Shown here: one piece after another, positions 2,256 through 19,702 of the stretch | Layout: each line of letters begins with the position of its first letter | Numbering within the stretch: the first letter of the stretch is position 1 | Assembly: GCF_016342405.1 (NCBI RefSeq) | Contig: NZ_JAEINN010000001.1 | Span: 62,001 to 126,000, forward strand | Reading direction: 5' to 3' | Length of the DNA: 64,000 nucleotides | DNA from: Maridesulfovibrio ferrireducens | GTDB taxonomy: Bacteria > Desulfobacterota > Desulfovibrionia > Desulfovibrionales > Desulfovibrionaceae | Position numbers and translations under genes: made by a program | The notes under the pieces: generated by a model | The model's input: only the letters and a program-made list of their open reading frames with translations | What the model was told of the DNA's origin: nothing | The model's database searches: none

Positions 2256-3182
2256 TTATTTTCGGAGCAGTTTTTGCGCTTCGCATAAAATATTTTCCGC
2301 AGTGATTCCTACGTGAGCAAAATGTTCAAGCTGCGAACCATAATGAGCAGAAAAAGTGTCTGGCAACCCGATACGTTTAAACCGTAGAGGTTTATCAAGG
2401 CATGCTTCCGCAAGAATTTCAGCAACAGCACCCCCCAGTCCGCCGAGGATTGTATTTTCCTCCACACTTATGACACATGAAGTGTTGCGGGCTTTGGAAA
2501 TAATCATTTCAGCATCAAGGGGTTTAACTGTGGGCGTGTGAAGAATTGAGGCCGCAATACCTTCTTTTGCTAACAGCTCACTCGCCTTTTGCATCACTCC
2601 AAGCGTAACTCCGCAACCGACAAGCAATACATCTTTACCTTCCCCATAGCTGTAGGCTTTACCTATTTCAAAAGATTTTTCTTTAGTCACTATGGGGTCA
2701 TACCCTTTGCCGAGCCTGATAAAAATGGGGCCCTGATGGCTCAGAGTATGAGGCATGATTCTTACCATTTCCTCAGCGTCAGCCGGAGACAGGATCGTCA
2801 GATTGGGTATGACTCTTAAAATGGACAGATCTTCGGTGGCCCAGTGAGTTGGACCTAGCGGGGCGTAAACCAGCCCGCCGCCGTTACCGATAAATCTTAC
2901 GTTTAAGTTGTGCAGACAGGCATCAAGAACAATCTGTTCATAGCAGCGACGAGTCAGAAAGCTCTGGATTGTATTGATGTAAACAATCTTGCCTTCGTGA
3001 GCCATGCCGCTTGCCATGCCGACAGCGTGTCCTTCGGCTATGCCTTCCATAAAAAAGCGATCCGGCATTTCTTTTTGAAAATGACACAGGGTTCCCGCCC
3101 CGAGATCAGAGCCGATAAATACAACCCGGCTATCTTTTTTTGCAAGTTCGTAGACCTGCTCCAGACAAGCTTTACGCATCAT
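2256..3182 (-). CDS. transketolase-like C-terminal subunit (copy 1)
   Basis: A 308-residue protein with the pyrimidine-binding and C-terminal domains of a split transketolase/DXPS-type enzyme. FFMEGIAEGHAVGMASGMA carries the glutamate that activates the thiamine diphosphate aminopyrimidine ring. PLGPTHWATEDLSILRVIPN is the usual catalytic loop with its histidine. It overlaps the N-terminal subunit gene by 11 nt (two consecutive ATGs at 3182 and 3179; GAGG favours the second), so the pair should be co-translated. Two-subunit transketolases in sugar clusters are expected to transfer a two-carbon ketol unit. A second pair lies at 18770-20532. Substrates are unknown; supply of sedoheptulose 7-phosphate to the isomerase at 6767 is one hypothesis. 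Confidence 0.85.
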   Translation of the reverse strand: MMRKACLEQVYELAKKDSRVVFIGSDLGAGTLCHFQKEMPDRFFMEGIAEGHAVGMASGMAHEGKIVYINTIQSFLTRRCYEQIVLDACLHNLNVRFIGNGGGLVYAPLGPTHWATEDLSILRVIPNLTILSPADAEEMVRIMPHTLSHQGPIFIRLGKGYDPIVTKEKSFEIGKAYSYGEGKDVLLVGCGVTLGVMQKASELLAKEGIAASILHTPTVKPLDAEMIISKARNTSCVISVEENTILGGLGGAVAEILAEACLDKPLRFKRIGLPDTFSAHYGSQLEHFAHVGITAENILCEAQKLLRK

Positions 3183-3978
3183 AATCCTCGATACATTTAA
3201 TCATCTGCTCATGTTCTTCCGCAGACATTTTTGTTTTATGATGCCATGCAGGGTTTCCTTCAGCAAACGGAATTCCTTTACCCTTCACAGTGTGGCAAAT
3301 TATGGCTGACGGCTTGTCCTGTTGAAATGGAAGATCTGCAAATGCTTGCTCAAGTTCTTTCACGTTGTGCCCGTCCACTTCTTTTACCGCAAAGCCGAAA
3401 CTTTTCCATTTGTCCGCAAAAGGTTCCAATCCCGAAATTTGTTCAGTGCATCCATATGATTGCAGTTTGTTGTAATCAATAATGGCGGTCAGAGAGCTGA
3501 GCTTTTGTTTTCCTGCGCTCATTGCTGCTTCCCATACAGAACCTTCACCGCATTCGCCGTCACCGAGAACCGTGAAAACTCTGCTGCTTGATCCATTTAT
3601 TTTTAGCGCAGAAGCTATTCCCACGGCAAATGATAGACCATGCCCAAGACTTCCGGTAGCAAACTCAACTCCGGGGATTTTAGCTGTGGGATGTCCGCCC
3701 AGTAATCCGTCAAAGCGGCAGAAGCTGAACAATTCTTCCTCGGTAATGAATCCTTTTTCTTCCAGCATTACATATAGGGCAAGACAGCCGTGTCCTTTGC
3801 TGAGGATAAAGCGATCCCTGTCGTTTTGTTCAGGGGAGGCAGAGTTATATTTGAGTACGGAGTCGTAGAGAACCCGTACTATCTCAACTAAAGAAAGAGA
3901 CGGGCCGATATGACCTCGCCCTGCATTATGCAAAACATCTACAATTTTTTTTCTGAGCAACTTTGATCTGTGATCCAA
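3172..3978 (-). CDS. transketolase-like N-terminal subunit (copy 1)
   Basis: A 268-residue thiamine-diphosphate-binding subunit. The TPP/metal motif is clear: GDGECGEGSVWEA followed by IIDYNKLQ about 30 residues from the first glycine. GHIGPSLSLVEIVRVLY near the N-terminus and DRFILSKGHG are the other hallmark transketolase segments. Length equals the N-terminal half of a full transketolase. The start is a TTG at 3978 preceded by a perfect AGGAGG six bases away; no better ATG is present. A 42-nt gap separates it from the upstream kinase gene, one of the larger gaps in this operon. It pairs with the gene at 2256-3182. Confidence 0.85.
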   Translation of the reverse strand: MDHRSKLLRKKIVDVLHNAGRGHIGPSLSLVEIVRVLYDSVLKYNSASPEQNDRDRFILSKGHGCLALYVMLEEKGFITEEELFSFCRFDGLLGGHPTAKIPGVEFATGSLGHGLSFAVGIASALKINGSSSRVFTVLGDGECGEGSVWEAAMSAGKQKLSSLTAIIDYNKLQSYGCTEQISGLEPFADKWKSFGFAVKEVDGHNVKELEQAFADLPFQQDKPSAIICHTVKGKGIPFAEGNPAWHHKTKMSAEEHEQMIKCIEDYDA

Positions 3979-4020: not shown

Positions 4021-5055
4021 TTAATAAGTCTCAAAAAGAGTATTAAGTATCTTTTTATCTTTAGCTAAAAAAAGTTTTGCTTTCTCAAGTTGAGCTTTTC
4101 TCAAATTTTGGACATTGTCCGGTGTTCCAGATGCGAAAGCTCGTCTTTTCAAGTTCTTATTAGAAAATTCGTTCAGCAGAATCAAACACCACTTTAAACG
4201 GAAAAGAGGTAAAAGTGATTTAAATCTAATTTCAAAGTTTTTGTCGTTCCTAAAAATTTCATTCATACCATAATAAAATATTTTTATATCTGTTTTCGTT
4301 AAGTTCATAGCAGGGTGAAGTAGGAAATCAGAAGCTGTTTTCACAGGATCATCCCATCCGAAATATTCAAAATCTACAAAATATAAGTTGTTATGACTGG
4401 TGCGTAACGCATTGTGAAATCCTAAGTCGGATGGACTTAATGTCCGTAATTTATCGGGCAGAGGGGAGTTCCAAGTTTCAATTCCGAGCTGGTTTTTTGC
4501 AAAAGTTGTGCTTTTTTCGAGTTCTTCTGAAAAATCTTTTTCCAAAAAAAGGCGCATTTCACGAAAAAGTTCATCCTCTTCGGGGATTGCCGTAAGAATA
4601 TTAAACCGTTTGTTGATATTCTCCACAACTTCCGCTGGAGAAAAACATGCTTCCGCCGCAGAAGATATGTTGAGCGCCTTCCCGGTTGTGGAACTGGTTT
4701 TTAATTCCTTAAGAAATGTCAAAACCTCATGAATATCATTATTTTTGATTTTATCAACAGGAGTCCCGTTTATAAACGAATAGATGGCGGCCTGTTTAGA
4801 AGAATCAATGGCAACCGGAACTGGAATATTTTTAATCCGGTTTTGTGTCATAAAAGATATCGCAGCCCACTCCTGATCAAGTCTGCTAAGCCCGTCAGCT
4901 GTAAGCTGGGTATAGAATTTGACGGCGTAAGTTTCTCCTGACTCACAAAGGATTTTATATACTTTGCTGTTCCGTCCGGCATAGATTCTTTTTGCCGAAA
5001 GGACCTTTTTTTCTAAAGAATTATGGACAAGCTGTTCAATTTCAGATTGTCCCAT
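4021..5055 (-). CDS. APH/choline-kinase-family phosphotransferase
   Basis: A 344-residue kinase of the aminoglycoside phosphotransferase/choline kinase fold. An N-terminal lobe with AVKFYT (nucleotide-anchoring lysine) leads to a C-terminal lobe with LSPSDLGFHNALR (catalytic-loop aspartate and asparagine) and LYFVDFEYFGWDDP (metal-binding aspartate). The family phosphorylates small hydroxyl substrates such as choline, aminoglycosides, hydroxylated sugars or homoserine. The gene overlaps the upstream HAD gene by 14 nt. In this context it probably phosphorylates a sugar or polyol precursor; an antibiotic-resistance role is unlikely inside a biosynthetic operon. The exact substrate is unknown. 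Confidence 0.7.
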   Translation of the reverse strand: MGQSEIEQLVHNSLEKKVLSAKRIYAGRNSKVYKILCESGETYAVKFYTQLTADGLSRLDQEWAAISFMTQNRIKNIPVPVAIDSSKQAAIYSFINGTPVDKIKNNDIHEVLTFLKELKTSSTTGKALNISSAAEACFSPAEVVENINKRFNILTAIPEEDELFREMRLFLEKDFSEELEKSTTFAKNQLGIETWNSPLPDKLRTLSPSDLGFHNALRTSHNNLYFVDFEYFGWDDPVKTASDFLLHPAMNLTKTDIKIFYYGMNEIFRNDKNFEIRFKSLLPLFRLKWCLILLNEFSNKNLKRRAFASGTPDNVQNLRKAQLEKAKLFLAKDKKILNTLFETY

Positions 5056-5671
5056 TGTCTGTCCTTTTTACAATAAAATTACTGATTTCTTCGAATGTTG
5101 AAAAAACAGAACAGCCGGGTAGTTTGTGCCCGTCTTTTTCAGGAGAAAAAAGAATCTTATGAACATTATCAGGGAAAAGCGGTTCAGTGAAAACTTCTTC
5201 AAGATCGTCAATAAAGTAATGGTGACCAAGTTCTGCTATTTTTCTTACTTTCTCTTCTCTTGTAGAAAGAAAAAACATGTCATTTACTGACATTGAAAGA
5301 GTATCATTTGAGAAAAAGTTTGCTTCCGTTAAAAAATTCAAAGCACACTTTCGCAGGTCAATTTTCAGTTGTCCGTAGTTGGGGTAACGGGTTTTGTGGC
5401 TGACAATCTGAAAGGAGTGTCCGGCTTGTTTTAAGGTGAGAAGGCAGTCCCATACTCCAGACATCAGCTCAGCCTTATCAATCTCAGTTCCATATATTGC
5501 TACTTGAAGCTTCTGCCACTCTTCATCACCATGCAGCCGCCTGACTTCATCGCGTATGGAACGCTTGAGCATCGGTACGTTTTTTTGAATAAGTCCCCGC
5601 TCAAGTGCAATTTTATGCAGAGACTTATCATAGCGTATGATGGTGTTATCCAGATCAAATCCGATTAGCAC
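5042..5671 (-). CDS. HAD-superfamily phosphatase
   Basis: A 209-residue haloacid-dehalogenase-superfamily hydrolase. GFDLDNTIIRYD at the N-terminus is motif I, where the first aspartate would form the phospho-enzyme intermediate. FQIVSHKTR supplies motif II, and HHYFIDDLEEVF carries the acidic pair of motif IV. The start is GTG at 5671 with AGGCGG upstream; it follows the radical SAM gene by 10 nt. Its position between a kinase and the isomerase/kinase block makes it a candidate phosphatase in nucleotide-sugar assembly, analogous in role to GmhB. However, it lacks the zinc-loop cysteines of GmhB, so that equivalence is not supported by sequence. Confidence 0.75.
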   Translation of the reverse strand: MLIGFDLDNTIIRYDKSLHKIALERGLIQKNVPMLKRSIRDEVRRLHGDEEWQKLQVAIYGTEIDKAELMSGVWDCLLTLKQAGHSFQIVSHKTRYPNYGQLKIDLRKCALNFLTEANFFSNDTLSMSVNDMFFLSTREEKVRKIAELGHHYFIDDLEEVFTEPLFPDNVHKILFSPEKDGHKLPGCSVFSTFEEISNFIVKRTDNGTI

Positions 5672-5681
5672 AATAGGCCGC

Positions 5682-6752
5682 CTAAATGAAGTTTACATGA
5701 GGTCCGGGGTGACATAATTCCCACAGATATATGTTCATTTTGTCCATGCGGCAGTTTACTCTGCATTTTTGCGGATCAAGGTTGTCATTACACCAGCTGA
5801 GTGACTGAGCACGCTTATCGCCGTCCCATATTTCTTTGAAATTCTGTTCCCGGAGATTGCCGTATAAAAATTTATTATCACCTATGAAAATTCCACATCC
5901 CCAGATATTTAAATCAACATCCATGTATGACCAGAAAGGGAGAGCAAGGCAGCGCTCATATCCTTTGTCCTGCTCTTGCAGTCTGTCCATGGTTTTTTCG
6001 CGATATATCACTTTGAATGAGTCTGTTTCCAGTGCCCTGAGTTCTTTTCCAAGATCTACAAATTCTTCGTAAGTAAGACCCTCAAATTCTTTTGTAATTC
6101 CTTGAGGGTGTTGAGAATAGGGTTTTATTACAATGTAATCTAAACCTATGTCCCGGCACATTTCGGCCAAATTTATCATCTCGGATGCGTTTTCAGGTAG
6201 CAGTAGACTTTGCAGCCCTAAAACACAGTCGGAACCGGTTCTTTTGCGGATGGCGACGGCTTCTTTAAGGTTGTTCATAACCTTTTGAAAGTCTCCATCA
6301 GGTGACCTGTGTACTTCTTGATAGCTTCCGGGAGTTATTCCATTGCAACTGACTTTTACCCATGACAAGCCGTGAATTATCTTTTCCAGCTTATCAGGAG
6401 TCATGAGCACTCCGTTGGTGGCTATTCCTATATCTATTCCGGCTTCGGTTGTAGCAATACATATATCGGTGAATTTCGTGTTCATGAACGGTTCACCTTC
6501 ACCCGAGAACACGATGCTTTTTAACCCTGTGTCAGCAATAGTGTTTATGCGCTTTTTGTAGATTTCATAATCAAGAAATTTTGGTACATATTCCATGAAA
6601 TCATAGCCGCAGAATCGGCAACGATGGTTGCAGCATCCGCTTGGACTGACTTCCATAAAAATGGGACCGATATTTTCTCCGGCGAGCCATTTTGCAACTC
6701 TTGCGGGGTGGAGATGGAGTTTGTGTGAATCAATTTTATATTTATCGCTCAT
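5682..6752 (-). CDS. radical SAM protein with SPASM-like C-terminus
   Basis: A 356-residue radical SAM enzyme. Cys41, Cys45 and Cys48 (CNHRCRFC) bind the catalytic [4Fe-4S] cluster; SIVFSGEGEPFMN is the GGE-like SAM-contact motif. The C-terminal region has further cysteines (CLALPF, WGCGIF, CRVNCRMDK) that suit a SPASM-type auxiliary iron-sulfur centre. Such proteins in glycan clusters dehydrate, epimerise or oxidise sugar nucleotides, but substrate cannot be read from sequence. It starts 14 nt after the SIS isomerase gene and precedes the HAD phosphatase. With the partial gene at 1-269 the operon encodes at least two radical SAM enzymes. Confidence 0.8.
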   Translation of the reverse strand: MSDKYKIDSHKLHLHPARVAKWLAGENIGPIFMEVSPSGCCNHRCRFCGYDFMEYVPKFLDYEIYKKRINTIADTGLKSIVFSGEGEPFMNTKFTDICIATTEAGIDIGIATNGVLMTPDKLEKIIHGLSWVKVSCNGITPGSYQEVHRSPDGDFQKVMNNLKEAVAIRKRTGSDCVLGLQSLLLPENASEMINLAEMCRDIGLDYIVIKPYSQHPQGITKEFEGLTYEEFVDLGKELRALETDSFKVIYREKTMDRLQEQDKGYERCLALPFWSYMDVDLNIWGCGIFIGDNKFLYGNLREQNFKEIWDGDKRAQSLSWCNDNLDPQKCRVNCRMDKMNIYLWELCHPGPHVNFI

Positions 6753-6766
6753 GAAATTTTCCTTTA

Positions 6767-7333
6767 TCAGATATTATTAACAGAAACTGAATCCATCCAG
6801 TAGTGCAGGATGCAGGCGTGTCCTGTTTCTGCCATGCCATATGTTTCGGCAGGTAGCCAAAAGTTGAGATCGCCGATCTGTCTCATCTTGTTCGTCGGAG
6901 CCATGGCTGTGAGAGTTACAACCGAAGCTCCCTGTTCAGACGCAAAGCGGCAGGCATTAACAACATTCGGCGAGTTGCCGGAACTGCTGATAGCTACAAG
7001 CATGTCAGATGGAGTCAGCCGTCGTCTCAGAGGTTCGACAAAAACCTGATCAAAGGAAATGTCGTTGGCAAGGGCTGTAATAAGTGCCAAATCGGTAAAG
7101 ACTTGCGTATGAACATGGGCATTTTTTGCAAGGTCGGCTGAAATGTGGCTTGCCATTGATGCGCTGGCGCCGTTGCCGACAAGATAGATAATATTTCCAT
7201 TACTGCGAATTTCAACCGTCTTTTCTTTCCAAAACTCAAAGGCTTGATCACAAGTGGTATTAAACTCAGGTTTACATTCCACTTCAAGAGAGTTCAAGCA
7301 ATTCTGTAATAAATCTGTATGTTTATTCCACAA
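6767..7333 (-). CDS. SIS-domain isomerase, GmhA-like (TTG start)
   Basis: A sugar isomerase (SIS) domain protein of about 188 residues resembling phosphoheptose isomerase GmhA. IYLVGNGASASMASHISADL is the phosphosugar-binding loop with a histidine in the place of a GmhA zinc ligand, and MLVAISSSGNSPNVV is the second SIS loop. AETGHACILHYW near the C-terminus fits the active-site helix. The frame stays open upstream to an ATG at 7435, which would overlap the previous gene by over 110 nt. The TTG at 7333 has AGGA six bases upstream, overlaps the neighbour by only 11 nt and gives the family's usual length, so I prefer it. Beside the kinase/nucleotidyltransferase fusion it suggests a heptose-phosphate-type step. 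Confidence 0.75.
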   Translation of the reverse strand: MWNKHTDLLQNCLNSLEVECKPEFNTTCDQAFEFWKEKTVEIRSNGNIIYLVGNGASASMASHISADLAKNAHVHTQVFTDLALITALANDISFDQVFVEPLRRRLTPSDMLVAISSSGNSPNVVNACRFASEQGASVVTLTAMAPTNKMRQIGDLNFWLPAETYGMAETGHACILHYWMDSVSVNNI

Positions 7334-8315
7334 AGTTTTGTCCTGCGGGTGATTTTTTTTTGATTGCTGTCCAGAGCTGCGGGATTGTATCGGCATGAAA
7401 TCCTCGGACATAGTAGCTCCTTCCGCCATCTGCAACAGTTCGTATCAGCATAGTCTTCCATGGTCTGAAATAGTATTCGGCATTTGTTTTGGAGGCTTCA
7501 ATATTTACCTTTTCAGGTAAATCATGCAAATCGCATACTAAGGTTGTAAAATGGCAAATGGCTTTTTCTTTGCCTGAAACTGTAGCTGCGTTGCGAACCA
7601 TTGATAAGGCTTTGAGGTAAATTTCAGGAGCCATAACCGCGCTTCCGAAATTCATAACAACACCGCCCTCAAGGGATTCAAGAGCCTCTGCAAAAATTAG
7701 AAAATCAGTATAACTTGCCTGTCCGACTGCCGCACCATTACAATTCGGATGCTCATGGACGATGTCATAGCCTATGCCGACATGAACCGTTATGGGAATA
7801 TTCAGCTCATAAGCTTTGGCAAAAAGGCTGATATCTGCATGGTCCAGTTTGTTCTTTACGATATACTCACCCACTGCCTCACCGAAACCCCGTCCGTCTT
7901 TAGCTGCTTCATTAATAATATCGTTCAGTATACCTGTTTCCTGCCATAATCCGAATTGTCCGTTTGATATGTAAGTTGCAACACTTTCAGTGGTTCTGCC
8001 GTGCAGCGCATATTCAAAATCATGAATTGCACACGCTCCGTTTACAGCAATACAGCTGATTAATCCTTTTTCCATTATATCGAACAGGTATTTTTGCATC
8101 CCCGAACGTAGAACATGAGCTCCGATCATGAGGATTCTGGAACTGCCGTTATCGCGTGCCGTGGCTAAGTTTTCAGCGATTATTTCCAGCGATGGATGGA
8201 CTTTTTCACAAGGCGTTGGAATGGCTATTATTGAAGTGTCGAGGAGGCTTTTCCTTTCAGAAATGGGAAGAACCCTCAGTTTTGAGCGATCGAATAATTG
8301 ATATTTGCTGGGCAT
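7323..8315 (-). CDS. deoxyhypusine-synthase-like protein of unknown function
   Basis: A 330-residue protein with no usual sugar-enzyme signature. Three stretches can be aligned by eye with deoxyhypusine synthase: ILMIGAHVLRSGMQKYLFDI, IPITVHVGIGYDIVH, and GGVVMNFGSAVMAPEIYL. These correspond to the NAD-binding fold of that family. The catalytic lysine context (W-G-K in the eukaryotic enzyme) is not clearly kept; RPWKTML is the nearest match. Bacterial relatives act on polyamines or are uncharacterised. Here it sits between the SIS isomerase and the nucleotidyltransferase-kinase, suggesting NAD-dependent chemistry on a glycan precursor. Homology is my reading, not confirmed. Confidence 0.55.
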   Translation of the reverse strand: MPSKYQLFDRSKLRVLPISERKSLLDTSIIAIPTPCEKVHPSLEIIAENLATARDNGSSRILMIGAHVLRSGMQKYLFDIMEKGLISCIAVNGACAIHDFEYALHGRTTESVATYISNGQFGLWQETGILNDIINEAAKDGRGFGEAVGEYIVKNKLDHADISLFAKAYELNIPITVHVGIGYDIVHEHPNCNGAAVGQASYTDFLIFAEALESLEGGVVMNFGSAVMAPEIYLKALSMVRNAATVSGKEKAICHFTTLVCDLHDLPEKVNIEASKTNAEYYFRPWKTMLIRTVADGGRSYYVRGFHADTIPQLWTAIKKKSPAGQNFVE

Positions 8316-8321
8316 AAAAAC

Positions 8322-9851
8322 CTACTTTAGCGTGGCTGTAATATATTTACGCATATCCTGCTTACTTATTGATTTATCATTCCCCATAATCTGAACAGCC
8401 AGAGAACCTGCGATGTTTCCGAAAAATCCTACAAGCTCTTCATGAAGTCCCATACAACCCGCCATTGCGGATATGGAGAACAGCGCATCTCCTGCTCCGA
8501 CTCTGTCTACTACATTAGAGTTGAAAGAGGGTATCCTGACAAATTCACTGACAGGATTCCATAGGGAACAGCCGCGTCCGCCTTGAGTCACCATCGCAAG
8601 CTTTGCGTTTAATTTTTCTCCGACTTCTATCAGTAGGGGCCTTAGTTCATTTACCTGATCACGGGATTCAAGCCTTAATTCATGCTCTGCCAGAGAGAAA
8701 AAGTCCAAGCTAGGGAATTTGCCGATAGTATTAAAACCTCTGTTCCCGGCGTTTGCCTGTGTGTTTACGGCAAGATACGGAGCTTTTTCAGAGAGCAGTT
8801 CGACCATTGCCGGAGTTATGAAACCATGTCCGAAATCCGCGACGATAACAATGTCATATCCGTCTAATAGTTGTTCAAGCTGGCTGCATATCTCTTGTTC
8901 AAGATCTTTGGCTAATGGATCATCATTCATTATGTAGATTTCCATGATCTTGCTCAGGGAATAAGCATCGATAAATCTTCTCTTTAGAGTCGTGGGAGCT
9001 TTGGAGCGGGTGAAAAAGTGCGGAACGACTTTGGGATTAAGTTTTTCTCTGATAAAATTTTCGTAACGGTCTGTATCCCCGAGCATGGACAGCAGGGTAA
9101 CTTCTCCCGCGAAATTTGCCACATGATTTGCAACTGCCAGAGCGCCCCCTGCGTACATTTCATGGGATTGATACTTGAGAGCAAGAATAGGGTCTTTGGA
9201 TGATTTACCCAGTGTTGAAGCAATCTGATATTCATCGAGAATAGTATCGCCGACGATCAGAACCTTTAAATTGTTCATATCATCAAGCATGGTCAGAAGA
9301 TCCTTCAACTCGTAGCGATTCCGAAACATTTTTAGATATTCGTCAAGTTCTTCGCTGTTTTTAGTCAGGTAGCGGTTAATCAGATTTGATGAACTGAAAA
9401 CAATATCCGAAGTAAATATAAGTTTTGCACCGATCTCTTTAACGACATCAGCCTCACCGCCGATTTTTCCGGCAGGATCACTATCAACATCTTTGAATTC
9501 ATCACCTTTAGCATACACATCAGGACGGATGAGCCGCAAAAGTTCTTCGGCTGTGGGCCATTCATTGATAGTTACATAGTCAGTCTCACCCAGTGATGCC
9601 AGCGCTTCTGCACGTAATATTTCAGTAAAAGCAGGACGGTCCGGTCCTTTATCTACATAGTGATCAGGCGTTAGGCTTACGATGAGAATATCGCCATGCT
9701 CTTTAGCCTGACTTAGGTAACGGATATGTCCTATATGGAGAAGGTCGAAGACCCCGTGGCAAAGAACTATCTTTTTGCCCTGACTTTTAAGCTCTGCCGC
9801 AATTTCAGAAAGCTCAGAGATGCTTTTTATTTTATTATCAATACTTGTCAT
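8322..9851 (-). CDS. nucleotidyltransferase-PfkB kinase fusion (HldE-like, reversed order)
   Basis: A bifunctional protein of about 509 residues. The N-terminal third is a cytidylyltransferase-fold nucleotidyltransferase: GVFDLLHIGHIRYL has the HxGH active-site motif. The C-terminal part is a ribokinase/PfkB sugar kinase, with VVDRVGAGDALFS (anion hole and catalytic aspartate) near the end. Heptose enzyme HldE has the same two modules but with the kinase first, so domain order is swapped here. The ATG at 9851 with AAGGA seven bases upstream is preferred over a TTG at 9875. Next to a GmhA-like isomerase, it probably phosphorylates and nucleotide-activates a sugar phosphate. Confidence 0.8.
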   Translation of the reverse strand: MTSIDNKIKSISELSEIAAELKSQGKKIVLCHGVFDLLHIGHIRYLSQAKEHGDILIVSLTPDHYVDKGPDRPAFTEILRAEALASLGETDYVTINEWPTAEELLRLIRPDVYAKGDEFKDVDSDPAGKIGGEADVVKEIGAKLIFTSDIVFSSSNLINRYLTKNSEELDEYLKMFRNRYELKDLLTMLDDMNNLKVLIVGDTILDEYQIASTLGKSSKDPILALKYQSHEMYAGGALAVANHVANFAGEVTLLSMLGDTDRYENFIREKLNPKVVPHFFTRSKAPTTLKRRFIDAYSLSKIMEIYIMNDDPLAKDLEQEICSQLEQLLDGYDIVIVADFGHGFITPAMVELLSEKAPYLAVNTQANAGNRGFNTIGKFPSLDFFSLAEHELRLESRDQVNELRPLLIEVGEKLNAKLAMVTQGGRGCSLWNPVSEFVRIPSFNSNVVDRVGAGDALFSISAMAGCMGLHEELVGFFGNIAGSLAVQIMGNDKSISKQDMRKYITATLK

Positions 9852-9896
9852 TTCTATATCCTTTTCCACGCTCAATTCAGAGCTCGCAATTTAAGT

Positions 9897-10772
9897 CTAA
9901 GCTTTCCAGTCTCTTCTGATCGATTTTATCGGCCGCAATCCGTCTTCGGGGTCCGCGCGCCATTTCCGGTCCGGCTGTTCCACAGGGGTAGGTGTTTTTA
10001 TTCCATCACCGTCTGCGTTAAAGCCTGTAAGTACATTTTTAATAAGTCTCTCTGCATCATCCGGTAGCCAGCAGTGTCCGGAAGAATATTCAGCGCCTGA
10101 CGTATCCAGGTCAAGGTGAAATTCAATCATTTCAGCATCATATTTATGTACAGCGCGTTGGATAACTCCTTCGCTTACTGTATGGTCAGACCAGCCTGTT
10201 TTGCAATGGAATTCATTTCTCAGCGTGTTTATTGCAGAAAGGTTTGCCTGTTCCGCAGGTGCCGGATAACCGGAAACGCAGTGCAGTAGTGTCAGATCTT
10301 TACAACCGGCTTTGCTAAGGGTGGAAACTGCTGTGGAGATTTCATTCATATCAGCCATTCCTGTTGAGATCACAACGGGTTTTTCTGTCCGCGCGCAAGC
10401 AATAAGCAGGTCACTCCAGAGCAGTTCGTATGAGGCAATTTTAAAGAAGTCTACATATGGAGTTAAAATTTCGACAGCACCCAGATAAAAGGGGGTGCAT
10501 GAAAAGGCTATTCCTGTTTCGTTGCACCGTGTTGCGATTGCAGGGATAAAAGATTCAGGAAGCTCCCACGCAGATCTGTTTCTGTGCTGTTCGCTTTTTG
10601 CTAAAATTTCAGGGGCAAAAAGCTCGTCTATTTTGAAGAGTTGAAATTTTACAGCATCGCATCCTATGCGGGCCGAGGTTTCTATAAATTTGAAACAACG
10701 GTTTATGTCGCAGGCATGGTTGCTTGAGACTTCAGAGACGAAGAGGGGGGGATTTGAGAGGATGTTCTTCAT
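9897..10772 (-). CDS. NeuB-family nonulosonic acid synthase lacking SAF domain
   Basis: A 291-residue NeuB-type aldolase that would condense phosphoenolpyruvate with an amino sugar to make a nine-carbon acid. Family hallmarks: GCDAVKFQLFKIDELFAP, AFSCTPFYLGAVEIL, FFKIASYELLWSDLL, PVVISTGMADMNEI, LLHCVSGYPAP and GWSDHT. NeuB, PseI and LegI proteins normally run to about 350 residues with a C-terminal SAF (antifreeze-like) domain; that domain is absent. No SAF-like reading frame follows before the next gene. The partner genes pseB, pseG and pseF are in the same operon. Product could be pseudaminic acid or a relative; missing SAF may mean an altered acceptor or a stand-alone SAF protein elsewhere. 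Confidence 0.85.
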   Translation of the reverse strand: MKNILSNPPLFVSEVSSNHACDINRCFKFIETSARIGCDAVKFQLFKIDELFAPEILAKSEQHRNRSAWELPESFIPAIATRCNETGIAFSCTPFYLGAVEILTPYVDFFKIASYELLWSDLLIACARTEKPVVISTGMADMNEISTAVSTLSKAGCKDLTLLHCVSGYPAPAEQANLSAINTLRNEFHCKTGWSDHTVSEGVIQRAVHKYDAEMIEFHLDLDTSGAEYSSGHCWLPDDAERLIKNVLTGFNADGDGIKTPTPVEQPDRKWRADPEDGLRPIKSIRRDWKA

Positions 10773-10780
10773 TTTTGTTT

Positions 10781-11800
10781 TTATTGATTAATCTCAATCA
10801 ACATCCGCTCAACTGTAGGAGCTTCATGTTTTCTTGATATATAATATACGGCAATAATTTGTCCTTTTGAATTCAGAGCAAGGTCCCCGTATCCTCCATG
10901 AAATCTGCCGCCTTTATACCATGCAAGGGTTTGCGGATGACTCCACGTTTCTCCCCCGTCTTTGGACAGAGAAAGGGCAACCCGGCATCTGCGGTTTTTA
11001 CGGATCATTCCCCGATAAATCATCAGAACGTTTCCATTCGGTAGCAGCAGGAGCGCAGGGGCTTCTCCGTATAGACCTATAGAGACAGGAGTGCTCCATG
11101 TCAGACCTTCATCATCAGAGTGAGATTTGAATAATCCCTCATAACAGGGTTGCTGCCTGATCAGGGCAAGGATTCTGCCTGATTTTAGACGAGTGATGGA
11201 TGTCTCATTCATTCTGAAGTTTTCGGTGTGTTTAAACATAAATGACTGATGAGATATTTCAAGCGTTTCAGGATTCAACTTGAATGTTCCGCATCCTGCA
11301 CCGTTATAGAATGTTCCGATGAAAATTGCTTTGTCCTGCGACGGGATGAAGTGTCCGAAGGATGCCCATTCTCCTCCGGGAGGATCAAGGGGACGTCTTT
11401 GCGGGAAACTTTTCCCTCCGTCGGTGCTCAGTGAAAAATAGTTTCGGCGCAGTTCAGCGGTGTGGGTGCGGGTGATCATTACCACTCGCTCTGTATCAAG
11501 AGCTGTGACCAGAGCGTCATGCTCATTGGTTTTATCCGTGGCATGACTGATTACAAGGTTCGGTTTTTTAAAAGTCAGACCGTCATCGGTTGATCTGGTT
11601 GTATAAATATCTCCGGCCATGCCGTGGTCCATGACCCCCCGTAAATCAGGGTGGATATTAACAGCTCTGCGGAACCCCACCAGAAAGTCTTCGTTAACTT
11701 TTGTGATAGTTGGAAAGGATTGATAGCCGTCCCATTCCGCCGGAGTGATGCGTTTTGTGTCGAGTATGGAAACAGAAAGTTTGGGTCGTGATGAGTTCAT
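10781..11800 (-). CDS. sialidase/BNR-repeat family protein, probably cytoplasmic
   Basis: A 339-residue six-bladed propeller protein of the sialidase superfamily. At least four Asp-box motifs of the S-x-D-x-G-x-(T/S)-(F/W) type are visible: STDDGLTF, STDGGKSF, SDDEGLTW and SKDGGETW. No signal peptide or transmembrane segment is seen at the N-terminus, so it should stay in the cytoplasm. It lies 8 nt upstream of the NeuB-type gene. Exported sialidases release host sialic acid; a cytosolic one inside a biosynthetic operon suggests trimming or editing of a nonulosonic acid intermediate, or a sugar-binding role without catalysis. The catalytic arginine triad cannot be assigned by eye. Confidence 0.75.
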   Translation of the reverse strand: MNSSRPKLSVSILDTKRITPAEWDGYQSFPTITKVNEDFLVGFRRAVNIHPDLRGVMDHGMAGDIYTTRSTDDGLTFKKPNLVISHATDKTNEHDALVTALDTERVVMITRTHTAELRRNYFSLSTDGGKSFPQRRPLDPPGGEWASFGHFIPSQDKAIFIGTFYNGAGCGTFKLNPETLEISHQSFMFKHTENFRMNETSITRLKSGRILALIRQQPCYEGLFKSHSDDEGLTWSTPVSIGLYGEAPALLLLPNGNVLMIYRGMIRKNRRCRVALSLSKDGGETWSHPQTLAWYKGGRFHGGYGDLALNSKGQIIAVYYISRKHEAPTVERMLIEINQ

Positions 11801-11820: not shown

Positions 11821-12798
11821 TTATACTGAAACCATTTTAAGAAGGTCGCTTTTACTCAGCCACTGGGTATTGGTGTCGGAGCTGTATTCGAATTTTTGGG
11901 GAACTTTAACACCGTTGCAGGTTATTTTATCCCTTTCAAAGTAGCGGTAGGCCGGCTGGATCACATAGTAATTTTCAAACTCGTAAGTGTTTATGGCTTC
12001 ATTTGCGGGGATGATAAGTTCGTGCATTTTTTCGCCGGGGCGTATTCCGATTATTTCCATTTCACAGTCGGGGCAGAGGGCTTCCGCCATGTCGCCTATG
12101 CGCATGCTGGGGCTTTTAGGTATAAATATTTCACCACCCTGCATTACTTCCAGACTGTTGATAACAAAATCTATCGATTGTTCCATAGTAATCCAGAATC
12201 GTGTCATATCCGGATCAGTTATGGTAATCCGTCCTGTTTTTTTTAATTTTAAAAATCTGGGAACAATGCTTCCTCTGCTTCCGAGAACATTTCCATATCT
12301 GGCGACTGAAAACCTTGTCCCTTTGACTCCTGCATAGCTGTTGCCGTTGATAAATAATTTGTCAGAGCATAATTTTGTTGCTCCGTATAAATTCATCGGA
12401 TTTGAAGCCTTATCGGTGCTGAGGGCTATTACCCGTGAGACTTTTTCGTTTATCGCTGCTTCTATTATGTTTTGAGTCCCTAGAATATTAGTTTTCACAG
12501 CCTCATAGGGGTTGTATTCGCAGGAAGGAACAGCCTTCATCGCTGCCGCATGGATGACAAGGTCAATCCCGCAAAAGGCTCTGAGAAGCCGGTCTTTGTC
12601 GCGGATATCTCCGATAAAATAGCGAAGGCATGGGTAATCTTCGGGAGAAAACTTTTCCTGCATTTCCTGTTGTTTATGTTCGTCTCGGCTTAAGATGATA
12701 AGTCTTTGCGGTCTATATTGGGTGAGAGCTATTTCTACAAATTTTTGCCCGAAGGAACCTGTTCCACCGGTTATTAATACAGACTTGTTGTTAATCAT
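11821..12798 (-). CDS. pseB: UDP-GlcNAc 4,6-dehydratase (PseB-type)
   Basis: A 325-residue extended short-chain dehydrogenase closely matching PseB, which converts UDP-GlcNAc to a 4-keto-6-deoxy-L-altro sugar as the first pseudaminic acid step. VLITGGTGSFGQKFV is the NADP-binding loop; HAAAMKAVPSCEYNP, LSTDKASNPMNLYGATK (active-site threonine, aspartate, lysine plus Y-x3-K) and GIRPGEKMHE are family signatures. The length is normal. Its ATG overlaps the stop of the GH57-like gene as TAATG. PseC and PseH, which act next, are not encoded in the visible part of the operon. Confidence 0.88.
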   Translation of the reverse strand: MINNKSVLITGGTGSFGQKFVEIALTQYRPQRLIILSRDEHKQQEMQEKFSPEDYPCLRYFIGDIRDKDRLLRAFCGIDLVIHAAAMKAVPSCEYNPYEAVKTNILGTQNIIEAAINEKVSRVIALSTDKASNPMNLYGATKLCSDKLFINGNSYAGVKGTRFSVARYGNVLGSRGSIVPRFLKLKKTGRITITDPDMTRFWITMEQSIDFVINSLEVMQGGEIFIPKSPSMRIGDMAEALCPDCEMEIIGIRPGEKMHELIIPANEAINTYEFENYYVIQPAYRYFERDKITCNGVKVPQKFEYSSDTNTQWLSKSDLLKMVSV

Positions 12799-14747
12799 TA
12801 GAACTTATCCTCCATGTATGGCTTGATAGAAAAGCCGGTGGAAAAAATATAATTTGAACCTTCGCAGGAAGTTTGCAGGCTGGTTTCATCCATTTCCTGC
12901 ATAGAGAAAAAAACTCTGACAAAAGGAGAAGGGGTTGCCTGCTGGCATTTAATCATACCGATAAATGCATGCTCTTTAACCATAGGGGAAATTTCAAGAG
13001 CTCTTTCCTCTCCTCCCAAAATCACGGTTGAGTCGGTCATTCCTAGAGCTTGAGATGACGATACGAGAAAAGAAACATGGTCGCTATGATCGAAAGTACA
13101 ATCTTTCAGGAAATGTGTTTCCCGTTTTCCGCCGTTTGAAGTTGCGTAAAAAAGCTTATCCGGATTCATTGTTCCGGTGAGAAGAGTCACATGCCCCAGA
13201 CGCATAAAGCCTCGTGGCGGTTCGTTTAAAGAAAATTTGTACAGAACATCGATCTGCTGTTTGTCTCTGTAAATTCTGACAGCCTTATCAAGGGACCCTT
13301 GATATAGATTCATGGTGCAGGATATTGTTGTGAATTCAGAAGTCTTTTTTATTCTGGGGGTAATTTTAGCAAGATCTGTATCTTTTGGTATTCCGGGGCC
13401 TTCCATGATGATGTGACCTGAGAAAAAATCAGCTCCGAGATCTATATCTTTAAAGTAGCCGTGCCCGAGGGTTCCGAAAGAAGGATACCGGTTGTGTGAG
13501 GCAAAGGATGCTTTATGTATTGCCAGCCCTTTGGCAGTATTCAACGTTATTGAAACAGAGGGGGTTTCCACATTAAGCTTTCTTCCTCGCATGGCAACTG
13601 TGTCGCCCTCAACTTTGAAAAGTGGTTCTTCTACAATCGCACTTGATTCTTCTGCTATATTCGTAAGCTTTTGGATGGCTTCGGCATATCTTTCTTTTGT
13701 TATGTGGGTGCGAAAATCGCTGGACCAGCAGAAACACAATTCCCGCCATTTTTGTTCTGTCTCCGGGCAAGAGTCTATGATCTGGTCAAGTTTGGCGGCA
13801 ACAGCGCGGCATAATGAATTTATGTAGAAATCGTTTCGTCCGCTAACGGCCCAGCGGGTGATATTGTATTTACTCTGTTTTTTTACAGGGACGGGTTGTT
13901 GCGCCGAGCATAATGAAAGTTTGTTGCCCCCCAGCGGATGGTCGAGGTCGTTCAGAACTTTTGAGGGGAGGTGGAATGTATGCTTTCTGTTTTGAAGAGC
14001 CTTGAAGGCTAACAGAAGAAGGGACCATTCACTGTCTGCTTCCTGCACTGCTTCCGTTTTATATCTTTGCGGCCTGAAGTCGAATATTTCGGCATCGTTT
14101 CCATAAACAGGCAGCCAGCCGGATTCGGTTCCAAGGCTTTCAACGTATTCAATATATTCGGACAGTTCCAGTTCTTTGTGGGCAAATCGTTGCAGTTTCT
14201 GGAAGACCATGGAGCGACTCCAGAGTACAGGTATTGATTCATCGTCAATGCCTGAGACTCGTTGCGGGAAATGCTGAATATGGTCATCCCATCCGGAGAA
14301 TCTGGCAGGGTTGTCATAGTCCATAAAGACCCCTTCATAGCCAGCATTAATATAATGTTCCACAAGTCCTGCGGACCATGCTTGCTCATTAACAAGAGCT
14401 ATACGGGGTGTTGTTTCCAAAATTTCGTTGCATACGTTTTTACCGATGCGCAGGTTTGCTTTATTGACAGAGGCTGGAACCAGAGGCCCTATTATCTGGG
14501 CATATCCGCTGCCTATTAATTCGGCTTTATCGTTTTTGAGCAATTCTTTAAATTTTTCAATCCATTCCGGTGCAAGGTCTTTAATTATTTCAAGAGTTAT
14601 GCCCGAAGCTTCGATACCGAGCGGAAAATCGTGTTTTTCAATAAGATTAAGCAGCGGCCAATAGCAGCGTTCAATGACCTCCATGCGGCTTTCTTCCGGT
14701 ATGGAAGAGAACATGAGGTTGAGATGAAATATTGCAAACAGTTTCAT
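12798..14747 (-). CDS. GH57-like glycoside hydrolase family protein
   Basis: A 649-residue protein whose N-terminal region resembles family 57 glycoside hydrolases and the related polysaccharide-deacetylase barrel: IFHLNLMFSSIPEE at residues 5-18, PLGIEASGITLEII, and ELIGSGYAQIIGPLVPAS. The position corresponding to the GH57 nucleophile glutamate may be in RIALVNEQAWSAGLVEHYI. The C-terminal half is a beta-rich region without a recognisable motif. No signal peptide is visible, so a cytosolic role is likely. Flanked by an ATP-grasp gene 2 nt away and by pseB (1-4 nt overlap), it may remodel an activated or lipid-linked glycan. Specificity unknown. Confidence 0.7.
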   Translation of the reverse strand: MKLFAIFHLNLMFSSIPEESRMEVIERCYWPLLNLIEKHDFPLGIEASGITLEIIKDLAPEWIEKFKELLKNDKAELIGSGYAQIIGPLVPASVNKANLRIGKNVCNEILETTPRIALVNEQAWSAGLVEHYINAGYEGVFMDYDNPARFSGWDDHIQHFPQRVSGIDDESIPVLWSRSMVFQKLQRFAHKELELSEYIEYVESLGTESGWLPVYGNDAEIFDFRPQRYKTEAVQEADSEWSLLLLAFKALQNRKHTFHLPSKVLNDLDHPLGGNKLSLCSAQQPVPVKKQSKYNITRWAVSGRNDFYINSLCRAVAAKLDQIIDSCPETEQKWRELCFCWSSDFRTHITKERYAEAIQKLTNIAEESSAIVEEPLFKVEGDTVAMRGRKLNVETPSVSITLNTAKGLAIHKASFASHNRYPSFGTLGHGYFKDIDLGADFFSGHIIMEGPGIPKDTDLAKITPRIKKTSEFTTISCTMNLYQGSLDKAVRIYRDKQQIDVLYKFSLNEPPRGFMRLGHVTLLTGTMNPDKLFYATSNGGKRETHFLKDCTFDHSDHVSFLVSSSQALGMTDSTVILGGEERALEISPMVKEHAFIGMIKCQQATPSPFVRVFFSMQEMDETSLQTSCEGSNYIFSTGFSIKPYMEDKF

Positions 14748-14748
14748 A

Positions 14749-15984
14749 TCAACTTTTTTCGGTGATTATTTTTATGCAGTTAACAGCTTTATTCACGTTT
14801 TCGACAGCTTTTTCTCTCGTTTCAGCAACCCCCATCACAACTCCGGCTCGGGCAGGATGGTTTGTCGTCGGAGGAATAATAGAACCAGCCTGTGTGCGGA
14901 TTTCGACCATGCGGATTCCGTCAATAGCAAGAGCTTCTTCGATTCCTTCTATTCTGACAACTTTTCCTTGATCAGGGAAGAGGTAACGCTGTGCTACTCC
15001 TTCCTGAAATACAGGAATCATGTCCTTTGGTGCGGGAGTTTCTCCTATTGCAAGCCGGATGGCTGTTCCGATAAAGTCCACACCTGTATTCCACGGTATT
15101 TCATGTGTGCAGAAGTATCCTCCGGAAAGTCTCGCCGCTATTTCGATTACGTAAGGTTTGCCGTTATGAACAACCATGTCACCTTTGAATACCCCGTTAT
15201 TGATACCCAGAGCAATTGCCGCCATTCCGGTAAGTTCTTTCACTTCCTGTTGGGTTTCGTCTGATAGAAATGAGGGCAGTTGTCCTCCATTTTCAATTAT
15301 ATGCGGAGAAAATCTGTCAATATATTCATAATTTCTGTCTGAAAATCCGGGAGTGTATGTTTTCCCGTTTACCACAAAACCTTCGGTGCTGATTTGTGGA
15401 CCGTTCAGATAGCTTTCAATCATGACCCGCCCGGCAGGCGATTCATGTTGTGCATGTTCAAAAGCCCATTGCAAATCGGGGAGGGTGTCTGAACCGTATT
15501 CAAGGCGCAACACTCCGCGGGCACCCCGGCTATCCACCGGTTTGATGACGAGACTTTCTTTCCGTTTTGTAAAATTTTTTCTAAGTTCATCGGCATCAAA
15601 AAGTTCTTTATACCAAGGAATGGGTATGCCTGTTTCTTTGAAACGGTTTTTCATTGCCAACTTGTCGGTGGCGAGGGCTGCCGTTTCGTTGCTTACTGCT
15701 TGAATTCCAAAAAAATCAGCAACAGCAGCAACGGTATGCGGGGCATCAACAGCCGCACACATTATTCCATCAGGTTTTTTCCCTTTTGCCGCCCAAAGTT
15801 TGAGAGCTTCGACGCTTTTTTCAGGGGTGTAGACGCATCCGATCACAGTTTCATGGGCATATTTGAACCCCGGAGCTTCGGGATTGAGGTCGGTGGCGAC
15901 CACATGGAGTCCCATCTCAACAGCTTTTTGAATCACAGGGATTGTTTCCAACCCCGCGCCAATTATGATCAGAGTCTTTTTCAT
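14749..15984 (-). CDS. ATP-grasp ligase
   Basis: An ATP-grasp enzyme of about 411 residues. TLIIIGAGLETIPVIQKAV begins a Rossmann-like preATP domain. LVIKPVDSRGARGVLRL is the ATP-grasp lysine and glycine loop, and GVFKGDMVVHNGKPYVIEIA with AARLSGG gives the metal-binding glutamate and arginine region typical of PurK- or carbamoyl-phosphate-synthase-like ligases. The start ATG at 15984 lies 5 nt after the upstream stop with GGAA upstream; longer frames run into the neighbour. ATP-grasp enzymes join a carboxylate to an amine or thiol through an acyl phosphate, so this could amidate or aminoacylate a uronic or nonulosonic acid. Substrate unknown. Confidence 0.8.
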   Translation of the reverse strand: MKKTLIIIGAGLETIPVIQKAVEMGLHVVATDLNPEAPGFKYAHETVIGCVYTPEKSVEALKLWAAKGKKPDGIMCAAVDAPHTVAAVADFFGIQAVSNETAALATDKLAMKNRFKETGIPIPWYKELFDADELRKNFTKRKESLVIKPVDSRGARGVLRLEYGSDTLPDLQWAFEHAQHESPAGRVMIESYLNGPQISTEGFVVNGKTYTPGFSDRNYEYIDRFSPHIIENGGQLPSFLSDETQQEVKELTGMAAIALGINNGVFKGDMVVHNGKPYVIEIAARLSGGYFCTHEIPWNTGVDFIGTAIRLAIGETPAPKDMIPVFQEGVAQRYLFPDQGKVVRIEGIEEALAIDGIRMVEIRTQAGSIIPPTTNHPARAGVVMGVAETREKAVENVNKAVNCIKIITEKS

Positions 15985-15988
15985 AAGA

Positions 15989-17194
15989 TTATTCCGGTTT
16001 TTTGCAGACCATAAAAGTGTTCTGTCCCTTGTGATCATTAGGGAATACGACTCTTCCCTGTTTTATGCCTATAATCTTTTCTATTTCAAAATGTTCCGAG
16101 CATAGATTTGTAATTTCTTCGAGTGAAAATTCTCTCAGGTGCTGGGAGTTCACGGGGATATGCCCCAGACTGTTTTGGGGGGTGCTCAAAATAAGCCGTC
16201 CGCCGGGTTTGAGAATCCTGAACATTTCCTTGAAGTAAGGAGCAGGATCAACATGTTCAACTGTTTCAAAACTGGTGATTGCATCAAATGTTTGGTCTGC
16301 ACAATTAAAGGCGGTAGCATCACCAATTTTAAATGTCAGGTTTTTCTGTGTTGTTTCGGCGGCCGCATTGCTGACAGTTGTTTCATCAAGGTCGGCAGCA
16401 ATAACATGCGTAGCTTTTTCAGCAAGCATTCTTGCCCCGTAACCGGGTCCGCAGGCACAGTCGAGAACGGTCATTCCCGGATTGATGAAGTCAAGAGCCA
16501 GTTCATAGTGGAATCTGAGCTGGTCACCGGTTTTTATGTTTTTGTTGCTGACCTGCATTCGGCCTTCGACATAAACTCCATGCGCAATTTCTCGGCATTT
16601 TTTAAGCCATTCATCGCTGACAGGGGAATATGTTTTGAATCGTTCGCATTTGAAATCAGCGCTGTTGCTGAACATGAAAAATTTTGGATGAACTTTGAAG
16701 ACTCCTGCCTCCGGTAAATATTTGAGCATGGATATAACTTTTTTTAACCCGCTCAGCCTGTATATGTCCGCGGTAAGCTGAATGGGGAAGTCATCCTCCA
16801 TTTTTATACAGTCCAGATGATTCTGTTCCGCAATTTTCAACATTTCTGCTGCATGCTCAGGAAGCCAGCCGAAGTGAAGTCCGTCAACTCTCACGAATAG
16901 TGTTTCGTCCGGAACATGTTGAAGAGCATTGATCATGCGTTCCAGCGGGCTGTCATCAAATCCGTAAAAGACTTCAATTTTGTGTGCAGGAAACATCGAA
17001 GGCAGGTCGTCGAGCCGTCCTCCTTTGTCAAAGGCCGGTGCAACTATATAAATTTTAGCGTCGGGAAACTGATTGAGTGCGTTTTCAACTGTCAGGGCAA
17101 CAACAGGGCGGCCGTCTATTTCATTCATGCACCAGTCCGGCGCGCCGCTCCATGCTCGGGATGCGGCCTGTATCAGAATGATCGGTTTATCCAT
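15989..17194 (-). CDS. nucleotidyltransferase-like/methyltransferase fusion
   Basis: A 401-residue two-domain protein. Residues 1-210 resemble the NTP-transferase (GT-A-like) fold, with IILIQAASRAW at the N-terminus, RPVVALTVENAL and LFVRVDGLHFG; the canonical GGxGxR loop is not obvious, so activity is uncertain. The second half is a clear class I methyltransferase: TVLDCACGPGYGARML is motif I, VIAADLDE motif II and FDAITSFETVEHV motif IV, followed by ILKPGGRLILSTP. Fusion of an activation domain and a methyltransferase suggests a methylated nonulosonic acid or nucleotide sugar. It is 19 nt downstream of the glycosyltransferase gene and 4 nt upstream of the ATP-grasp gene. Confidence 0.75.
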   Translation of the reverse strand: MDKPIILIQAASRAWSGAPDWCMNEIDGRPVVALTVENALNQFPDAKIYIVAPAFDKGGRLDDLPSMFPAHKIEVFYGFDDSPLERMINALQHVPDETLFVRVDGLHFGWLPEHAAEMLKIAEQNHLDCIKMEDDFPIQLTADIYRLSGLKKVISMLKYLPEAGVFKVHPKFFMFSNSADFKCERFKTYSPVSDEWLKKCREIAHGVYVEGRMQVSNKNIKTGDQLRFHYELALDFINPGMTVLDCACGPGYGARMLAEKATHVIAADLDETTVSNAAAETTQKNLTFKIGDATAFNCADQTFDAITSFETVEHVDPAPYFKEMFRILKPGGRLILSTPQNSLGHIPVNSQHLREFSLEEITNLCSEHFEIEKIIGIKQGRVVFPNDHKGQNTFMVCKKPE

Positions 17195-18769: not shown

Positions 18770-19702
18770 TTATTTCTTGCGGGTCAAAGTCCTGTGAACA
18801 GCTTTAATAATATCTTCAGGCAGAAGGCCATATTCTTTAGCCAGATCTTCCGGCTCGCCAGATGCTCCGAAAATGTCATTCACAGCCACTCGTTCAACAG
18901 GAACCGGAACGTTTTCGCAAACTATTTCCATCACAGCTCCGCCGAGTCCGCCGTATTTGTTGTGATCTTCGCAGGTTATTATTGCGCCTGTTTCTTTTGC
19001 GGCTTTGATTACAGCCGATTCGTCCATAGGTTTAAGCCACGACATGTTCAATACACGGCAGGAGATACCTTCTTTCGCGAGATGGTCAGCGGCTTTCAGT
19101 GCGCGGTGAACCATGACTCCTACAGCCATTATTGTGGCATCGTTTCCTTCGCGGAGAACGTGGGCTTTGCCGTGTTCAAAAAATGTGTTTTCGTCAAAAA
19201 CATTAGGCAGCGGACTGCGCCCTGTTCGCAGGTATAACGGGCCTGTATTGTCGAGCAGATATGGCATTATCGCTTTAAGTTCTATAGGATCAGCAGGTGA
19301 GACAACGCTCATTCTGGGGATGCTGCGATATATGGCTATATCTTCAAGAGCCTGATGGGTCGCCCCGTCCGGGCCTACGTCCAATCCTAGATGGCTGGCG
19401 GCAATTTTTACATTGAATTCAGGGTAGGCGATTGAGTTCCTGGCTTGTTCCAGCGCCCGCATAGATGCAAAAACAGCGTAACAGGTAACAATGGGGATAA
19501 TCCCTGATTCCGCGAGTCCTGCGGCCATTGAAAACATATTTTGCTCGGCAATTCCGCACTGAATAAATCTGTCAGGATATGCTTCGCGAAAATGATAAGT
19601 TCCCGTTCCGCCTGCAACGTCAGCATCCAGAACAACGAAGTCCTCACGTTGTCCGGCAAGTTCTGTAAGTATTTTGCCGAATGCGTCTCTCATATTTTCC
19701 AT
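18770..19702 (-). CDS. transketolase-like C-terminal subunit (copy 2)
   Basis: A 311-residue second copy of the split-transketolase C-terminal subunit. RFIQCGIAEQNMFSMAAGLA contains the cofactor-activating glutamate; GPDGATHQALEDIAIYRSIP is the active-site loop; GGAVMEIV lies in the C-terminal domain. The open frame extends to 19780, but the ATG at 19702 shares one base with the stop of the N-terminal subunit gene (TAATG), which is the natural start. Compared with copy 1 the active-site loop differs (GPDGATHQA versus GPTHWATED), suggesting different substrates for the two transketolases. Confidence 0.87.
   Translation of the reverse strand: MENMRDAFGKILTELAGQREDFVVLDADVAGGTGTYHFREAYPDRFIQCGIAEQNMFSMAAGLAESGIIPIVTCYAVFASMRALEQARNSIAYPEFNVKIAASHLGLDVGPDGATHQALEDIAIYRSIPRMSVVSPADPIELKAIMPYLLDNTGPLYLRTGRSPLPNVFDENTFFEHGKAHVLREGNDATIMAVGVMVHRALKAADHLAKEGISCRVLNMSWLKPMDESAVIKAAKETGAIITCEDHNKYGGLGGAVMEIVCENVPVPVERVAVNDIFGASGEPEDLAKEYGLLPEDIIKAVHRTLTRKK

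Follow-up and report, generated by a model that had tools for sequence, protein, structure and literature searches.

A likely heptose-epimerase replacement family with a deoxyhypusine synthase-type fold, and its paralogue in a glycan cluster of Maridesulfovibrio ferrireducens

The window, a 64,000-nucleotide stretch of the Maridesulfovibrio ferrireducens genome (contig NZ_JAEINN010000001.1, positions 62,001 to 126,000), carries on its minus strand an open reading frame at 7323–8315, which encodes 330 amino acids from an ATG at 8315. The product matches NF052581, the “GSU2086 family protein” of NCBIfam, which lists the family without a function, at 382.1 bits (cut-off 250), with residues 8–316 aligned to positions 2–300 of the 301-position profile; this match and the fold described below led to the rejection of a spurious reading frame. 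On its 3′ side lies the gene for a GmhA-like SIS-domain isomerase (6767–7411, minus strand; SIS_2 1.2e-16, phosphoheptose isomerase model 8.1e-20, below cut-off), which starts at an ATG at 7411 preceded by an AAGGAG-like Shine-Dalgarno sequence, within a frame that reaches to a TTG at 7435, and overlaps the GSU2086-family gene by 89 bp. On the 5′ side, an HldE-like fusion of reversed order (8322–9875, minus strand), with a nucleotidyltransferase (HIGH motif) preceding a PfkB kinase (GAGD motif), ends six bases ahead of the GSU2086-family gene; it matches rfaE_dom_I (1.6e-35) and rfaE_dom_II (2e-28), both below cut-off. Given the overlap and the short gap, all three genes are probably translated together. 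An earlier note on this DNA had placed the frame and its isomerase, kinase and nucleotidyltransferase neighbours in the same way, and in both respects it was accurate.

Beyond the isomerase gene, the minus strand encodes a radical SAM/SPASM protein (5682–6752; Radical_SAM 3.2e-20), a HAD-superfamily phosphatase candidate (5042–5671; DLDNT motif, with weak HAD matches below cut-off) and an APH-like kinase candidate (4021–5055; APH E = 0.02, below cut-off), all of which recur in clusters of the B type defined below, followed by the N-terminal half (3172–3978; Transketolase_N 2.1e-44) and the C-terminal half (2256–3182; Transket_pyr 1.8e-29, Transketolase_C 3.9e-26) of a transketolase. The next gene 5′ of the HldE-like fusion (9897–10772, minus strand) encodes a NeuB-family synthase (NeuB 8.7e-60), which is also adjacent in a second locus, L032. 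With only 291 amino acids, and with matches to the PseI/NeuB models that extend just to about position 273 of 327–329, this synthase seems to lack the usual C-terminal part. Directly adjoining it is the gene for a BNR-repeat, sialidase-like protein (10781–11800, minus strand; BNR_2 3.9e-15).

The earlier note had described a likeness to deoxyhypusine synthase (DHS) in three separate segments, and had raised a spermidine-type or NAD-dependent transfer onto a sugar. The likeness itself is upheld, whereas the three segments are not, as sequence similarity to DHS is confined to a single stretch, residues 46–109 of the window protein. Scores of the window protein fall below the cut-offs of both DHS models (PF01916, E = 0.0083 and 15.9 bits against 27; TIGR00321, 12.1 bits against 304), and below those of the AgrE/ArgZ C-terminal domain (PF21570, 9.1e-6 and 25.9 bits against 27) and of TIGR00300 (17.3 bits against 410.8). 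Among 34 aligned relatives, 28 match PF01916 (best 9.4e-8) and 24 match PF21570 (best 4.7e-9), so the profile search did return the similarity to DHS that the note expected. The active-site motif of DHS near its C-terminus, WGK, carries the catalytic lysine; this tripeptide is absent from all 100 distinct relatives, the window protein included. The below-cut-off model scores and the missing WGK led to the rejection of membership among DHS or homospermidine synthases, and below-cut-off scores combined with gene context led to the rejection of membership among ornithine cyclodeaminases.

An AlphaFold2 model built from the 34-sequence alignment (pLDDT 91.3, pTM 0.90) revealed a DHS/AgrE-type fold, with VIA-align Z scores of 19.9 for AgrE, 19.8 for ArgZ, 18.5 for both MMP1218 and Trypanosoma brucei DHS, and 18.3 for human DHS. 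The overlay on human DHS (1dhs) extends over 251 residues with an rmsd of 3.5, confirming the shared fold, and Foldseek was consistent (3c2q, 1.4e-8; DHS 7cmc, 2.3e-6). Identity across the structural alignments is 7–17%: the DHS enzymes, alike in fold and weakly similar at residues 46–109, lie at 7–13%, whereas the ornithine cyclodeaminase domain of AgrE/ArgZ and MMP1218, at 15–17%, provide both the best structural and the best PDB profile matches and have an HD.E stretch in common with the window protein, which is nevertheless below their family cut-offs and linked to heptose genes. The relation to DHS is real at the level of the superfamily, and the window protein is not a DHS. Both DHS and AgrE are NAD-using enzymes whose mechanism involves transient oxidation, and the AgrE structure has been solved with ornithine and NAD+.

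When the window protein was compared by blast with 395 genomes of its own phylum, the identities were bimodal. In 17 genomes the copies are 54–60% identical over near-full length (the window's own being 100%) and are here called B, while the remaining genomes have lower-identity, partial matches, called A; the split rests on identity to the window protein and on a FastTree tree, and leaves one family-positive genome, G348, unclassified. In the tree, for which 100 distinct members were kept from 144 matches, each of at least 270 residues, 25 B sequences separate from 75 A sequences. The B sequences come from the window's phylum and from records titled Omnitrophota, Nitrospirae, Lentisphaerae, Planctomycetaceae, Armatimonadetes and Zipacnadia, and with this breadth of phyla the B subfamily looks mobile and laterally spread. 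The window copy is 37–42% identical to the A-type members in A1. Across A and B, 37 positions are conserved, including the polar residues R21, H98, D99, E101, H178, H187, D204, E231, K235, R241, D262, R284, R292 and H307.

Gene neighbourhoods tie the family to heptose metabolism. Neighbours were counted on stop-to-stop frames at loci that were either best-scoring (L002–L031, L108–L131) or chosen for spread (L044–L063, L132–L141), and the fractions that follow are thus not those of random samples. In the window's phylum, 26 of 30 short and 19 of 20 wide A-type loci have a GmhA-like SIS gene immediately upstream of the family gene, with ten genomes common to both sets; a representative SIS protein scored 193.6 bits against TIGR00441 (gmhA), for which the cut-off is 209. 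In the Omnitrophota it is an HldE kinase gene that lies directly downstream of the family gene (10/10 wide and 7/12 short loci), and in the phylum of the Nitrospirae-titled locus L038 the kinase is upstream (7/12 short loci). The order at one Omnitrophota locus, L140, is three heptosyltransferase-family genes, ychF, the family gene, the HldE kinase gene (402 bits, cut-off 345), kdsB, kdsA, kdsD and kdsC. A kinase gene adjoins the family gene in 16 of the 17 B-type loci, the window's own included, as does the nucleotidyltransferase–PfkB fusion in all 15 B-type loci L093–L107. At L041, which the tree places apart from the main B group, a HAD gene, the family gene, PfkB and SIS follow one another; L040 has HAD, the family gene and PfkB, L042 has the family gene and PfkB, and there is no nucleotidyltransferase among the scanned neighbours of these three loci. 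What stays constant across the family's loci is the sugar-phosphate stage.

Two variations were seen among the B-type loci. In six of them (L098, L100, L101, L103, L105 and L107) the family gene and the fusion are separated by a second, free-standing nucleotidyltransferase gene, which hints at two activated sugars or at divided roles. In five others (L036, L043, L096, L097 and L099) the family gene is followed, at the position of the window's SIS gene, by a stretch of about 90–130 residues that resembles the N-terminal region of PseB, an SDR protein, as encoded in the window.

This linkage bears on what the DHS-type fold is used for. The fold would suit a spermidine-type or other amine transfer onto a sugar, or indeed a true deoxyhypusine or homospermidine synthase, but with scores below the cut-offs of the DHS and homospermidine models, no WGK in 100 relatives, and linked genes that belong to heptose and Kdo synthesis, such a function is extremely improbable. 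No polyamine genes were present among the neighbours scanned. The spermidine-type transfer raised in the earlier note, against which the association with heptose genes and with HldD absence also tells, is unsupported; its other suggestion, NAD-dependent chemistry on a sugar, fares better and is the best guess for a DHS-superfamily protein tied to isomerase, kinase and nucleotidyltransferase genes. The close association with either GmhA or the HldE kinase might alternatively mean that the protein is a non-catalytic or regulatory NAD-binding partner of that enzyme. This is very unlikely, as the 37 positions conserved across A and B, many of them polar, have the look of an active site, and as such a role would leave unexplained the exchange with HldD described below.

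The same linkage is seen in Geobacter sulfurreducens, where the locus numbers of hldE, GSU2086 and gmhA run consecutively and the three genes show nearly equal defects (−3.1, −3.2 and −3.7, respectively) in Tn-seq of cells grown on electrodes (PMC5585712). A literature search for GSU2086 returned nothing beyond that paper, and one pairing deoxyhypusine with heptose gave no match.

The canonical ADP-glyceromanno-heptose 6-epimerase, HldD (TIGR02197), belongs to the SDR fold family, which is unrelated to the DHS fold, and its chemistry likewise proceeds by transient oxidation. It is not among the families matched by the window protein at E ≤ 0.1, and the GSU2086 family, for which an equivalent step is proposed here, rarely shares a genome with it. 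Of the 395 genomes sampled from the window's phylum, the family passes its cut-off in 242 and HldD in 87, with both in 19, the family only in 223, HldD only in 68 and neither in 85. HldD is thus found in 19/242 family-positive as against 68/153 family-negative genomes (Fisher p 2e-17), and, for A-type copies only, in 13/234 as against 74/161 other genomes (p 1e-21); as genomes of one lineage are not independent, these p values and those below are to be read accordingly. In a subset of 80 genomes, picked as 40 family-positive and 40 family-negative, HldD scores are at least 303 bits in 22 genomes and at most 155.5 in the rest, a clean split showing that the absence of HldD is not due to the threshold. 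In the same subset a GmhB-like protein is present in 39/40 family-positive and 30/40 family-negative genomes, and the HldE kinase in 38/40 of each. Replacement of GmhB was accordingly rejected, as was replacement of GmhA or HldE, both of which have the family gene beside them.

The exchange recurs within taxonomic families and in a second phylum. Five families of the window's phylum (f16, f26, f29, f59 and f91) contain between them 17 genomes with HldD only, 20 with the GSU2086 family only and one with both; the HldD-only and family-only counts are 1 and 9 in f16, 3 and 1 in f26 (plus the genome with both), 9 and 2 in f29, 3 and 4 in f59, and 1 and 4 in f91, where G296 and G371 share a genus. 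Two more, f15 and f18, combine genomes that have both proteins with genomes that have the GSU2086 family only, and include none with HldD only. In the Omnitrophota, the phylum to which L037 belongs, 71 of 193 genomes have the family and 108 have HldD at E ≤ 1e-60 (104 over cut-off), with both in 6, the family only in 65, HldD only in 102 and neither in 20. This places HldD in 6/71 family-positive and 102/122 family-negative genomes (p 3e-26), or, counting by hand the 65 genomes with HldD above 340 bits, in 6/71 and 59/122 (p 5e-9); this contrast, made without group labels, could have few events behind it. The phylum of L038, with the family over cut-off in 21/24 genomes and HldD in 0/24, agrees and cannot by itself show association.

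The retention of HldE and GmhB, the absence of HldD, and the presence of an isomerase- or kinase-linked protein of an NAD-using fold are most simply explained if a non-orthologous protein has taken over from the C6 epimerase. The GSU2086 family is likely an unrecognised heptose-epimerase replacement family. More specifically, it is proposed, with confidence evenly divided for and against, to be an NAD-dependent sugar epimerase standing in for HldD, more likely on heptose phosphate than on ADP-heptose, with the window copy being a B paralogue that catalyses a step of this kind in a distinct nucleotide-sugar pathway; here we infer NAD use, epimerisation, the substrate, and a chemistry common to A and B. 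NAD+ would be held in the DHS/AgrE-type site, the C6 hydroxyl of a D-glycero-D-manno-heptose intermediate would be transiently oxidised, and the hydride would be given back to the opposite face, yielding the L-glycero-D-manno-heptose of LPS.

A heptose-phosphate substrate is favoured because the conserved neighbours are an isomerase, a kinase and a phosphatase, and because some lineages have no nucleotidyltransferase nearby. Replacement at the nucleotide level, with ADP-D-glycero-D-manno-heptose epimerised exactly as by HldD, would fit the complementary distribution equally well, but is distinctly unlikely in view of these isomerase, kinase and HAD phosphatase neighbours and of the three loci (L040–L042) whose scanned neighbours include no nucleotidyltransferase. 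HldD might also simply be unneeded, if the family carried out some other NAD-dependent step (oxidoreduction, dehydration, or epimerisation at another carbon) and the heptose remained D,D or became another isomer. That neither protein occurs in 85/395 and 20/193 genomes indicates that absence of HldD alone need not require a replacement, and the B copy coexists with HldD in the window genome and in 6 of the 12 genomes of loci L032–L043. Such a step is unlikely all the same, given that in two phyla the family and HldD come close to excluding one another, and given the retention of a GmhB-like protein and HldE in the window's phylum. A literature search found no heptose stereochemistry for any family-positive, HldD-negative organism, nor for Geobacter LPS. 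Replacement of the C6 epimerase, in its fullest form, would mean that a DHS-superfamily enzyme was recruited as a second, unrelated route to L-glycero-D-manno-heptose, acting at C6 on the heptose phosphate before nucleotide activation, and that a laterally spread paralogue, the window gene, makes activated heptoses for surface glycans; this combined reading is offered tentatively.

Heptose synthesis is textbook LPS biochemistry. The combined reading would change the order of its steps in 242 of the 395 sampled genomes of the window's phylum and in 71 of the 193 sampled Omnitrophota. If the replacement is real, hundreds of Gram-negative genomes seemingly without the last heptose step would use a different enzyme for it. 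To our knowledge, the DHS superfamily is associated only with polyamine and amino-acid chemistry. The GSU2086-family finding is real, and yields a candidate function, open to testing, for a family that NCBI lists without one and that affects growth on electrodes in Geobacter (PMC5585712).

The window copy calls for a separate account, as its genome encodes its own HldE, a GmhB-like protein, and a canonical HldD, the last of these within the window itself (46988–47965, plus strand; TIGR02197, 400 bits, cut-off 274.6). With these present, the B copy would serve a second pathway; HldD complementarity gives it no direct support, and the window copy is not a core-heptose replacement in this genome. 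It shares with GSU2086 of Geobacter the linkage to hldE- and gmhA-type genes, and differs from A-type members in lying in a surface-glycan cluster rather than an LPS-core setting. The B copy may carry out a comparable step for a surface glycan, in a nucleotide-sugar pathway of its own formed by the SIS isomerase, the GSU2086-family protein, PfkB and the nucleotidyltransferase; taken with the HAD candidate and the transketolase pair, the cluster plausibly supplies the surrounding surface-glycan genes with an activated heptose or a sugar like it.

Other genes of the same glycan region are of interest in their own right. A 649-amino-acid protein resembling glycoside hydrolase family 57 (12798–14747, minus strand; 4e-19), for which an NCBIfam match is absent, is encoded amid the sugar-biosynthesis genes. 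A second split transketolase pair occupies 18770–20532 (minus strand; C-terminal half 18770–19780, N-terminal half 19702–20532), and two such pairs in 18 kb point to the production of two distinct ketoses or branched sugars. An ATP-grasp protein with an L-amino acid ligase C-terminal domain (14749–16038, minus strand; LAL_C2 2.8e-18) could attach an amino acid or like group to a sugar.
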